Shown here: in pieces, positions 35,231-39,850 of the stretch
Numbering within the stretch: the stretch's first letter is position 1
Layout: every line of letters begins with the position of its first letter
Source of the DNA: Deltaproteobacteria bacterium
Lineage (GTDB): Bacteria; Bdellovibrionota; Bdellovibrionia; Bdellovibrionales; Bdellovibrionaceae
DNA: 64,000 nucleotides
Assembly (NCBI GenBank): GCA_017302835.1
Contig: JAFLCC010000001.1
Coordinates: 248,001 to 312,000, forward strand
Reading direction: 5' to 3'
The notes under the pieces: model-generated
Seen by the model: the letters and a program-made list of their open reading frames with translations, nothing else
Told to the model about the DNA's origin: nothing
The model's database searches: none
Position numbers and translations under genes: made by a program

Positions 35231-36655
35231 ATGTCGGATCTGGATTTCAGTAAAGCAAAATATACAGCAATTATAAGTGATTTACATTTGTGCGAGGCCG
35301 AACCGATTCACTTAAAATATCCGCTCTGGAAAAAATATAAAACAAAGGAATTTTTCTTTGATGATGAGTTTGCTTTATTTCTAAAGAAAATCCAAGCTCA
35401 GGCGAACTATGAGCCGGTAGAGCTTGTTCTTAATGGCGACATTTTTGATTTTGATTCCATTACTAGCTTCCCCGAAGATGCCATTTACAAAGTGTCCTGG
35501 TTAGAAAAGATTAGAGGCTTAAAACCACGGGAAGAAAGATCCCTTTATAAAATTACAAAAATTATTGAAGATCACCCTCAGTTTTTTCAAGCCTTAAAAG
35601 AGTTTTTAGAAAGCGACAATAAAGTTATTTTTATTTTTGGAAACCATGATATCGAACTTCATTTTGAAAAGGTACAGGCAGAAATTTTAAAATCACTAAA
35701 TCTAAAGGATATGAAAGCTCAAAATGTACGGTTTAATGAATGGTTTTATATTTCAAATCAAGACACCTTGATTGAACATGGAAATCAATATGATCCTTAT
35801 TGTGTTTTTGATGATCCTATAAACCCGTTAGTTCGTGGGTATAATTACTTGTATATGAAGTTGCCATTTGGAAATATCGCGAGTCGATATATTATGAATG
35901 GAATGGGTTTCTTTAATCCCCATTCAGACGGTAATTACATTATGAATTTTTCTGATTATGTTAAGATGTTTACGAAATACATGTTGAGGGCTCAACCGTT
36001 TCTTATCTTAACCTGGTTTATGGGCGCTGTCTGGACTTTGTTCTATACGATTAAGGATCAATTTGCTGAACCTATAAAAAATCCTCTTTCGACAGAAGAG
36101 AGAGTCAATTTCATTGCGCATAAAGCGAATGCCTCGCCCAGACAAGTTCGTGAGCTCAAAGAATTGTTTGTTGAAAATGCAAACAAAGATCCGATGCTCA
36201 TCATGAAAGAATTGTGGCTGGACCGAGCTTTTATTATTCTTATTTCTTTTTTGATCATCTACTGGTTTTTTTCAAGCCTAAAAGATGTTTTTGGAATTTC
36301 TTTGTTTTGGGGTTTTATTCCGCTTTTTCTAATGATTCCTTTCTTTTTGTTCTATACAAAATCAATCGTCTCTTTAGTTTCTGGTTACAAAGAACCGGAT
36401 GATAAAATTTTGGCAATTGCAGGATATATTGCGGGGGTTTCCAGAATTGTCTTTGGTCATACACATATTAGTCGCCATGAAATGATTGGCTCTATCGAAC
36501 ATCTAAATTCGGGAACCTGGTCGCCAAGCTATTTAGACATAGAATGCACCCGACCAACGGGGCAAAAATACTTCGTCTGGCTTGGGCCTAAAAGTGATGG
36601 AGAAGGTCGTTGCGCAAAACTTTCGACCTATGTTTCGCATCGCATTGTTGAATAA
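35231..36655 (+). CDS. membrane metallophosphoesterase (calcineurin-like)
   Basis: The 474-residue protein carries the calcineurin-type metal motifs: ISDLHL (Asp17, His19), NGDIFDFD, FGNHDIELH and, much later, VFGHTHISRH. Three hydrophobic segments (about 257-277, 336-353 and 358-382) lie between the third and the last motif. The active-site halves are thus separated by a membrane insert, unlike soluble LpxH-type enzymes. EHGNQYD supplies a further metal His. The substrate is unknown. The start has no strong ribosome site, and the promoter must lie within murD. Confidence 0.85.
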   Translation: MSDLDFSKAKYTAIISDLHLCEAEPIHLKYPLWKKYKTKEFFFDDEFALFLKKIQAQANYEPVELVLNGDIFDFDSITSFPEDAIYKVSWLEKIRGLKPREERSLYKITKIIEDHPQFFQALKEFLESDNKVIFIFGNHDIELHFEKVQAEILKSLNLKDMKAQNVRFNEWFYISNQDTLIEHGNQYDPYCVFDDPINPLVRGYNYLYMKLPFGNIASRYIMNGMGFFNPHSDGNYIMNFSDYVKMFTKYMLRAQPFLILTWFMGAVWTLFYTIKDQFAEPIKNPLSTEERVNFIAHKANASPRQVRELKELFVENANKDPMLIMKELWLDRAFIILISFLIIYWFFSSLKDVFGISLFWGFIPLFLMIPFFLFYTKSIVSLVSGYKEPDDKILAIAGYIAGVSRIVFGHTHISRHEMIGSIEHLNSGTWSPSYLDIECTRPTGQKYFVWLGPKSDGEGRCAKLSTYVSHRIVE

Positions 36656-36725
36656 GATTCCTTTGTCTGGACTTGGTTCGGTATGTCAACATCTATAAGT
36701 TAATATATTCAACATGGAGGCCAGG

Positions 36726-36926
36726 ATGTCAGAAGATTTAGTATTAGTAGTAACTAGCAAAGTAAAAAAATTAATTAAAGAAAAAGGCGAAATGAACACA
36801 TCGGCAGCAACGGTAGAGGTTTTAAGCAAAGCGGTTGAAAGACTTTGCTTAAAAGGAATTGAAAGTGCGAAGGCAGATGGAAGAAAAACGGTAATGGATA
36901 GAGACATTATCATTGATCACATATAA
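36726..36926 (+). CDS. bacterial histone (Bdellovibrio type)
   Basis: The 66-residue protein is a single histone fold: a first helix (VVTSKVKKLIKEKG), loop with MNTSAATVEVL, a long middle helix (VEVLSKAVERLCLKGIESAK), then the loop-helix GRKTVMDRDIIIDHI. The GRKT(V/I)xxxD pattern is the L2 hallmark shared with archaeal histones, and the MDRD form is that of the Bdellovibrio histone already characterised as a main chromatin protein. The start is ATG 36726, five bases after GGAGG; an ATG at 36714 overlaps that site. A hairpin with a short T tract follows the stop. Confidence 0.92.
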   Translation: MSEDLVLVVTSKVKKLIKEKGEMNTSAATVEVLSKAVERLCLKGIESAKADGRKTVMDRDIIIDHI

Positions 36927-36933
36927 CTGAGAA

Positions 36934-36954
36934 TATAGTCCGTAACGGACTATA
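36934..36954 (+). terminator. hairpin after the histone gene
   Basis: TATAGTCCG (36934-36942) and CGGACTATA (36946-36954) form a perfect 9-bp stem with a three-base loop, starting eight bases after the stop and followed by AATCTTTT. The T tract is short, so termination may be partial. Confidence 0.6.
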
Positions 36955-36960
36955 AATCTT

Positions 36961-37000
36961 TTGGTAGTTATTTTAAAATGCTATTTGGAATAACTACCAA
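36961..37000. repeat. 12-bp inverted repeat at the 3' end of the minus-strand gene
   Basis: TTGGTAGTTATT (36961-36972) and AATAACTACCAA (36989-37000) are perfectly complementary with 16 bases between. The left arm spans the stop codon of the minus-strand gene and the right arm lies in its last codons. No clear T run follows on either strand. Confidence 0.7.
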
Positions 37001-37519
37001 TGCAGAGTCACGAAAAGACTCACCTGTATTTGCAAGGCTTCCAATAAACATATCAATACTTAAGGTTGTCGTATCAAAACTCTTTGAAACTTGTGATATA
37101 TGCATTTTGCCGATAGCCTCGTCATCAATAAGAGACCTTGATAAAGTCACTTTTTTAGAAGAATTAGAACCAGGTATCCAATTAATAAGGTTAAAGCCGC
37201 TTTTTTCAACAGAAAATTGAGATATGGAAAATTTTGAACATATCCACATAGAGTACACAAGTGTATGTTGGCTTTGTGGATCATAAGTTGTTAGAAAATA
37301 CCCAACTTGATTTTCTCCCTTAAACAAGGTGTGGAGTTTAGAGTTTTTGGTTTTTTGGACGGCATCGAAGGCATCATTGCTAACATATTGATCCATGGAA
37401 CAGGATCTAAAAGTATTTGGCAAATTTGCAAATGAATTAGAAGTGAACAGTAAGAAAACGAAAGTGGTAAGTGACAAAATTTTAAAAGATTTATATTTTT
37501 CTAGAGACCTATAGTTCAT
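36968..37519 (-). CDS. exported protein of unknown function (183 aa)
   Basis: I do not recognise this protein. The preferred start (37519) follows a GGGAG ribosome site. It gives a basic N-terminus, a hydrophobic run and a cut near SNSFA, followed by NLPNTFRSCSMDQY, so a signal peptide is likely. The mature part has two cysteines (RSCSM and WICSK) that could pair, and beta-like segments. It ends within an inverted repeat convergent with the histone gene. A longer in-frame start at 37582 would add 21 residues with no signal character. Confidence 0.7.
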   Translation of the reverse strand: MNYRSLEKYKSFKILSLTTFVFLLFTSNSFANLPNTFRSCSMDQYVSNDAFDAVQKTKNSKLHTLFKGENQVGYFLTTYDPQSQHTLVYSMWICSKFSISQFSVEKSGFNLINWIPGSNSSKKVTLSRSLIDDEAIGKMHISQVSKSFDTTTLSIDMFIGSLANTGESFRDSALVVIPNSILK

Positions 37520-37733
37520 AAAAAACTCCCTATTAACTGTTTCTATGGTTTGTGCCGGGATTACGCATTTGCGCAATCCCATAGTTAGTTAAGCCGTTAA
37601 GTATTGTTTTACGTATCTTTGTTTAAGTAGTTAAGTGTTGTTTGTTGCGGGTAGTTTACAACAAAACTGTGGAACTTGAAATGTCGAAGATTTAGACAGT
37701 AAAAAAGTAATAGTTTTTAAAAATTAATCGAAA

Positions 37734-39770
37734 TTAAGAAATCATTTTTACAAGTTCATCCCAAGAAATAATATGGACGCCAAGGTTCTTGGCCTTTTCA
37801 AGTTTGGATCCCGGATCGTTGCCAACAACTAAATAATTTAATTTAGACGAAACAGAGCTCAAAAGCTTGCCGCCATTTACTTCGATGAGTTCTTTGGCCT
37901 GATCCCTAGGTATTTCAAGGGTTCCAGTAATTAAAAAACTCTTGTTTTGCAGAGGTCCGTCGTTGGTGCGTTTGATTTTTTCAAATGTAATTCCGACTTG
38001 AATTAAATTTGAAACCTCTTCAATATTAGCTGGAGATTGCAGCCAATTCAAAATAGCCATTGCGACCTTTGGGCCAATTTCTGGAATTTGCAAAAGGTTA
38101 GTTTCCTCTGTTCCAAGAAAATTTTCAATTGTTAAAAAATGATTTGCCAAGTGTTTGGCGGTGGTTTCTCCAACAAAACGAATGCCTAAACCGAAAAGCA
38201 ATCGAGCCAAGGTAGTTTTTTTACTTTTATTCAGACTTTCAAGAATATTTTGAGCTGATTTCTCGCCTTGTCTTTCTAAGGTGAGAAGATCTTCCTTAGT
38301 TAGTCTGTAAAAATCAGAAAACTTACGAACAAACCCTTTATCAACCAAAATATCGATCCATTTATCACCGAGCTTTTCAATATTGAGTGCTTTTCTTGAA
38401 GCAAAATGTTTTAGAGATTCTTTCAGTATGGCTGAGCAGTTCATATTAACACAACGGAAGACAACCTCCTCTTCGGCAGCTAGTAGAGGCTCGCCACAGG
38501 AAGGACAGTGGGTTGGCATTTTGAAGGGACTTGAATTCGAATTTCTTTTTGACAAAACCACATCCACAACTTCCGGGATAACATCCCCTGCCCGCTGAAC
38601 GACAACGGTATCACCAATGCGAATATCCTTACGGTCAATTTCTTCTTGATTGTGGAGAGTGGCGTTGGTAACGGTAACCCCGCCGACTGATACGGGACTC
38701 ATAATGGCGACGGGAGTGATAGCCCCAGTTCTTCCAACCTGACAAATAATATCTGTAATGATTGTTTGGGCTTGCTGTGGAGGGAACTTAGCAGCCGTAG
38801 CCCACCGAGGGCTTTTAGAGATCATTCCGAGCTCGGCTTGGAGTTTAAAAGACGAGACTTTAATAACGATGCCATCCACATCAAAAGGCAAACGATGTCG
38901 TTTGCTTTCAAACTCATGATAAAAGTTAACAACTTCTTGAGCGTTTTCACAAACACGAGTTAATGAGGGAAATGTAGGGATGCCAAGCTGGGAAAACTTC
39001 TCATAAAGTTCAAGCTGAGTCTCGAAACCGATGCCAACAAAATCTCCAAGAGTATAGGCATAAAATTTCAATGGTCTTGATGCTGTGATTTTTGAATCTA
39101 ACTGACGAATGGTGCCAGCAGCAGCATTTCTAGGGTTAGCAAAAGCAGGCAAACCTTCTTCTTGTTGAGAGTTATTAAGCTCAAAAAAATCTTCTTTATG
39201 GATTAAAACCTCACCGCGAACCTCAAGCAATTCAGGAGGTGCCGTCGTTTTCAGTTTGAGAGGAATGGATTTAATGGTTTTTACATTTTGCGTGACGAGT
39301 TCCCCTGTAAGGCCATCACCCCGAGTCAGGGCTTTGGTGAGAAGGCCGTTTTCATATACCAATTCCATGGATAATCCGTCAAATTTGGGTTCACAAAAAT
39401 AGTGAATATTTTCTTTCGTGTTTAAAAACTTTTTGATTCTCTCATCAAAGGAAAAGATATCATCTTGGTTATAACTATTGGAAAGGCTCAGCATGGGGGC
39501 GCGATGATTTGATTTTTCAAAATGAGAAAGAGTTTTTCCACCAACTCGATGGCTGGGGGAATCTGGCCGGATCCAATCAGGGTGAAGTTCCTCGGTATGT
39601 TTTAACGCAAGAAATAACTGATCGTATTCAAAATCCGTAATAACAGGAGCGTCCTTAGAGTGGTATAGATCATCATGATATTGAATCAATGAAACAAGTT
39701 GAAGGTAATTTTCAAGAGTGAGAGGTTGATGGATAGGCTGGTATGAAGGCTTAAAATGAGAATCATTCAT
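37734..39770 (-). CDS. ligA: NAD-dependent DNA ligase
   Basis: LigA seals nicks in replication and repair. The 678-residue protein has the Ia domain, the adenylation lysine K129 in EPKFDGLS, TRGDGLTGE, VRGEV, NPRNAAAGTIRQLD, KFPPQQAQT and the OB-fold region with VGRTGAITPVA. Four zinc-binding cysteines follow (CPSCGEP, RCVNMNCSA), then the helix-hairpin-helix repeats and a C-terminal BRCT domain (SFLITGTLEIPRDQAKELI). The start is ATG 39770; a TTG five codons upstream is less likely. Confidence 0.97.
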   Translation of the reverse strand: MNDSHFKPSYQPIHQPLTLENYLQLVSLIQYHDDLYHSKDAPVITDFEYDQLFLALKHTEELHPDWIRPDSPSHRVGGKTLSHFEKSNHRAPMLSLSNSYNQDDIFSFDERIKKFLNTKENIHYFCEPKFDGLSMELVYENGLLTKALTRGDGLTGELVTQNVKTIKSIPLKLKTTAPPELLEVRGEVLIHKEDFFELNNSQQEEGLPAFANPRNAAAGTIRQLDSKITASRPLKFYAYTLGDFVGIGFETQLELYEKFSQLGIPTFPSLTRVCENAQEVVNFYHEFESKRHRLPFDVDGIVIKVSSFKLQAELGMISKSPRWATAAKFPPQQAQTIITDIICQVGRTGAITPVAIMSPVSVGGVTVTNATLHNQEEIDRKDIRIGDTVVVQRAGDVIPEVVDVVLSKRNSNSSPFKMPTHCPSCGEPLLAAEEEVVFRCVNMNCSAILKESLKHFASRKALNIEKLGDKWIDILVDKGFVRKFSDFYRLTKEDLLTLERQGEKSAQNILESLNKSKKTTLARLLFGLGIRFVGETTAKHLANHFLTIENFLGTEETNLLQIPEIGPKVAMAILNWLQSPANIEEVSNLIQVGITFEKIKRTNDGPLQNKSFLITGTLEIPRDQAKELIEVNGGKLLSSVSSKLNYLVVGNDPGSKLEKAKNLGVHIISWDELVKMIS

Positions 39771-39850
39771 GGTAACAATACACAATAAAAGTTAAAACTT
39801 TGCAACTTAGATATTGGCCTATTTCAAATGATCAGGTACAAATAAAAAGA

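Follow-up and report, generated by a model that had tools for sequence, protein, structure and literature searches.

A Bd0055/HBb-type single-domain histone gene in a conserved gene neighbourhood of the Bdellovibrionales

The histone gene and its flanking elements

The window, i.e. the whole 64,000-nucleotide stretch of DNA analysed here, contains a small histone gene located between a phosphoesterase gene and a DNA ligase gene. The features of this locus are as follows (positions within the window):

35231–36655, + strand: calcineurin-like phosphoesterase (PF00149) with hydrophobic segments; upstream neighbour, syntenic in Bdellovibrionales
36674–36701, + strand: upstream element TGGTTCGGTATGTCAACATCTATAAGTT, matching a motif common to many orthologues, at −52 from the start codon
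36716–36720, + strand: Shine-Dalgarno sequence GGAGG, 5 bases 5′ of the histone start codon
36726–36926, + strand: Bd0055/HBb-type single-domain histone gene, 66 aa, assigned to the bacterial dimer histones of the α3 family
36934–36954, + strand: hairpin with a 9-bp stem and a 3-nt loop, with AATCTTTT behind it; may act as an intrinsic terminator
37734–39785, − strand: ligA (NAD-dependent DNA ligase, named from reading of its sequence); convergent downstream neighbour, syntenic

The histone open reading frame comprises 66 codons, starting with ATG at 36726 and ending with the stop codon at 36924–36926. The gene was proposed in the sequence-only reading to have its own start site, which agrees with the position of the GGAGG sequence, the presence of GGAGG-type sites upstream of the start codon in most histone orthologues, and the alignments of these orthologues, which begin at the same Met. 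An alternative in-frame ATG at 36714 would yield a 70-residue product, but was considered less likely because the ribosome-binding site would then lie within the longer reading frame. The product passes the Pfam cut-off for PF00808 narrowly (22.0 versus 21.4 bits, E = 2e-4), while a sequence search against the PDB retrieved the solved Bdellovibrio histone (8fvx/8cmp) with an E-value of 1.7e-29, followed by HTkC at 3.6e-4. Together with the HBb-like predicted fold described below, these matches uphold the earlier description of the product as a single-domain bacterial histone with a complete fold, and the GRKTVMDRD stretch indeed forms residues 52–60 in the second loop. The genome context had also been called compact, which does not hold for an assembly of 3.63 Mb. 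A search for a phage origin of the histone gene gave no matching phage record.

Upstream of the gene, sampling of 63 non-redundant histone gene upstream regions for shared motifs revealed the consensus c.aG.cC.tATGtAA..cTTTTtaagTt. It is most pronounced in genomes of Bdellovibrio and of Pseudobdellovibrio-like bacteria, and distant genomes show it weakly or not at all. Its information content is 12.3 bits, compared with 7.5–7.8 bits in shuffled controls, with several distant sequences aligning poorly. Within this element (−52 to −25), TATGCAAACCTTTT constitutes a conserved block, and the core of the element, CCCTATGCAAACCTTTTA, allowing up to 2 mismatches, occurs once per genome in three Bdellovibrio genomes, in each case at the histone gene. 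By eye, a TTGTC block can be recognized about 13–14 bases 5′ of TATGtaA..cTTTT; the conserved element lies at about −60 to −25 of the orthologues. As read from the sequence, TTGTC and the core lie too close together to form a standard sigma-70 promoter, and a sigma-70 promoter scan gave no match on the + strand. The upstream element may represent a core promoter or a control site.

Downstream of the gene, a hairpin terminator had been claimed. The hairpin itself is real, with a 9-bp stem and a z-score of −2.98 in its context, but its function as a terminator is no more than plausible because it is followed by an interrupted T-tract (AATCTTTTGG). Its sequence is not conserved in the orthologues, which carry other hairpins at the same place. 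Between the histone gene and ligA, an open reading frame on the − strand (36968–37582) encodes a 204-residue protein that gave no significant family match. None of the related loci compared contains a copy, and ligA there mostly lies about 500–800 bp nearer to the histone gene; this open reading frame looks like a lineage-specific insertion.

Gene order and orthology with Bd0055/HBb

With strain kdesi (L043) used as the reference for B. bacteriovorus, the histone shares 84% identity over 61 residues with its counterpart in that species, and the histone of the nearest relative within its own genus is 94% identical. Furthermore, the histone gene lies in the order murD(−), phosphoesterase(+), histone(+), ligA(−), gatC(+), gatA(+), which is common to B. 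bacteriovorus and most of the Bdellovibrionales loci; the neighbours are those we take to be murD, ligA, gatC and gatA from reading of their sequences. Matching loci were mostly found in Bdellovibrionaceae and Pseudobdellovibrionaceae. A histone match was present in 59 of the 60 relatives searched at the genus, family and order level, including all 50 good-quality genomes, and the single relative lacking a match is represented by a 67% complete assembly. Judged by these search scores, the sequence groups with HBb and not with face-to-face (FtF) or nucleosomal histones (E = 1.7e-29 to HBb versus 3.6e-4 to HTkC).

Based on three independent lines of evidence, namely sequence identity, predicted fold and gene order, the histone is orthologous to and syntenic with Bd0055/HBb, and comes from a different genus of that family. 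Both proteins share the reported DNA-contact residues, the RD clamp, the truncated α2 and α3 helices and the gene order (HBb structures 8fvx, 8fw7, 8cmp, 9ezz and 9f0e). Compared with HBb, our histone has two additional N-terminal residues (MSEDLVL versus MAEVL), and Ala56 and Glu26 of HBb are replaced by Asp58 and Ala28, respectively, besides conservative core changes such as Ile35 of HBb to Val37. The Bd0055-type histone is herewith confirmed as a conserved syntenic core gene of the Bdellovibrionales under strong purifying selection, while this histone gene taken alone is of little importance, being an ordinary representative of an already studied type. Neither can bacterial histones be called rare, as had been stated, given that their classification and solved structures are the subject of several papers (PMC10627809, PMC11317129, PMC11390915, PMC12701072).

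Predicted fold, DNA contacts and proposed mode of action

The AlphaFold monomer model of the histone (pLDDT of 87) contains helices at residues 2–21 and 27–50 and a 3-residue α3 at 58–60. This short α2 and one-turn α3 are those of a bacterial dimer histone, and the three-turn α3 of archaeal and eukaryotic nucleosomal histones is not found in the model. When the model was compared with the PDB using Foldseek, the best five matches were all HBb structures with 81–85% identity (TM-score of 0.81, RMSD of 1.7), followed by weaker matches to archaeal HTkC, an Asgard histone, Leptospira HLp and eukaryotic histones. Alignment to HBb, which carries A48 at the position of the archaeal tetramer histidine (PMC10627809), places Ala50 where archaeal histones have His49. 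The proposed check of the structure and of a tetramer interface thus yielded an HBb-like fold at the level of the monomer model and a replaced tetramer histidine. The FtF dimer–dimer residues R48/N52 (FtF numbering; PMC11390915) and the torus tetramer of FtF histones are probably absent as well, given the grouping with HBb, and the sprocket arginine R19 has been reported missing from bacterial histones (PMC10627809).

In HBb, DNA is contacted by T8, S9, K10, K12, K16, N22, T23, S24, A25, K52, T53 and R57 (PMC11317129). All 12 residues are identical in our histone with the numbering shifted by +2 (T10, S11, K12, K14, K18, N24, T25, S26, A27, K54, T55 and R59), and most of them are invariant across 27 diverse relatives. 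They include the T-S-K start of helix 1 with its contacting lysines (T10, S11, K12, K14 and K18), as well as K54 and R59, which answer the question raised earlier about Lys/Arg contacts in loop 2 by matching K52 and R57 of HBb. The RKTxxxD motif of loop 2 is likewise present, whereby the RD clamp (R51–D58 in HBb) is formed by the invariant R53–D60 pair, with D51 in support.

These data bear on three other readings of the gene. A tetrameric, DNA-wrapping FtF histone of the α3 family, such as Leptospira HLp or archaeal HTkC, would share the short α2/α3 and the RKT...D loop, and both proteins appear shortly after HBb in the sequence and fold comparisons. HLp of Leptospira perolatii (9qt0), shown to be tetrameric and DNA-wrapping (PMC12701072), and HTkC (9f2c) resemble our histone in their α3-truncated fold, but reach only 34–38% identity in the fold alignment compared with about 84% for HBb, and Bdellovibrionia have the bacterial dimer type (PMC11390915), which makes the FtF assignment very improbable. 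A histone-fold protein with a non-chromatin role, for example a TAF-like regulator, has precedent in some other histone folds (PMC10627809, PMC11390915), but it deserves hardly any weight here, since none of the HBb DNA-contact residues has been lost and most do not vary within the family. Finally, the gene had been introduced as a second, independent lineage member, and acquisition by an unrelated lineage would fit this description. The order of genes shared with B. bacteriovorus and the near-universal presence of the histone in the family and order reduce the chance of this to practically nil; an independent or transferred histone is ruled out by synteny. As an orthologue of HBb itself, with about 84% identity and the same gene neighbourhood, the gene therefore reveals little about variation within the family.

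The reading we favour, with a probability of roughly 0.96, is that the HBb orthologue is a dimeric nucleoid protein without sequence preference, which bends or sheathes DNA beside HU and does not form archaeal-type tetramers. By homology with HBb, the predicted α1–loop1–long α2–loop2–short α3 fold would assemble into a head-to-tail dimer, which would bind across the minor groove to the backbone of the DNA, irrespective of sequence. Binding would involve loops 1 and 2 (N24, T25, S26, K54, T55 and R59) as well as the beginning of helix 1 (T10, S11, K12, K14 and K18), and the DNA would consequently be bent or sheathed by an abundant protein working alongside HU. With a truncated α3 and Ala50 in place of the tetramer histidine, archaeal-type tetramers are not expected. 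That the protein dimerises, bends DNA, is abundant and matters to this organism is extrapolated from HBb, on which the literature disagrees, as it was reported either to sheathe straight DNA (PMC10627809) or to bend DNA (PMC11317129). The histone sequence as such is compatible with both modes and does not decide between them.

Selection, the Asp58 variant and other histones of the group

Compared with the nearest relative, the histone gene shows 3 non-synonymous and 30 synonymous differences (about 144 and 39 sites, respectively), the latter being saturated, so that no ratio is given; compared with the relative L010, dN/dS is about 0.02. Judged from these substitutions, the histone gene is under strong purifying selection. 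The one lineage feature that stands out is Asp58, which corresponds to Ala56 of HBb; it is common to the genus of the window and some neighbouring genera, and adjoins the contacting Arg59. Such an acidic residue might weaken or modulate DNA binding. It seems rather unlikely that the acidic loop-2 variant of this clade (MDRD for MARD, with AAT for AET in early α2) alters how strongly DNA is bound, or how far bending prevails over sheathing, relative to HBb; if it does, the MDRD variant would provide a natural test case for the two disputed binding modes. The orthologue set could also guide mutagenesis of HBb at the invariant contacts, the clade-specific A56D exchange and the upstream element.

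A search of the genome for HU and other histones, as had been suggested, returned three proteins of the HU/IHF family and a single ZZ zinc-finger histone with 144 residues (L005:1246–1680), all of known kinds. Within its own genome, the histone has a single relative, a histone domain that forms part of a longer protein. ZZ histones are a described category (PMC11390915), and the one found here presumably corresponds to Bd3044, a second and longer histone (PMC10627809). Like our histone, the Bd3044-type ZZ histones of Bdellovibrionota have a bacterial-dimer-like histone domain, but they carry an N-terminal ZZ zinc finger and share about 47% identity with our histone in the histone part. The ZZ histone was also observed in same-genus and Bdellovibrio genomes (L106, L109 and L112). 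In Bacteriovoracaceae (L096, L097, L098, L099 and L100), two tandem histone folds are present per chain of 131–149 residues, each with an SKVKK helix and an RKT(V/I)M loop; such doublet histones are a known kind.
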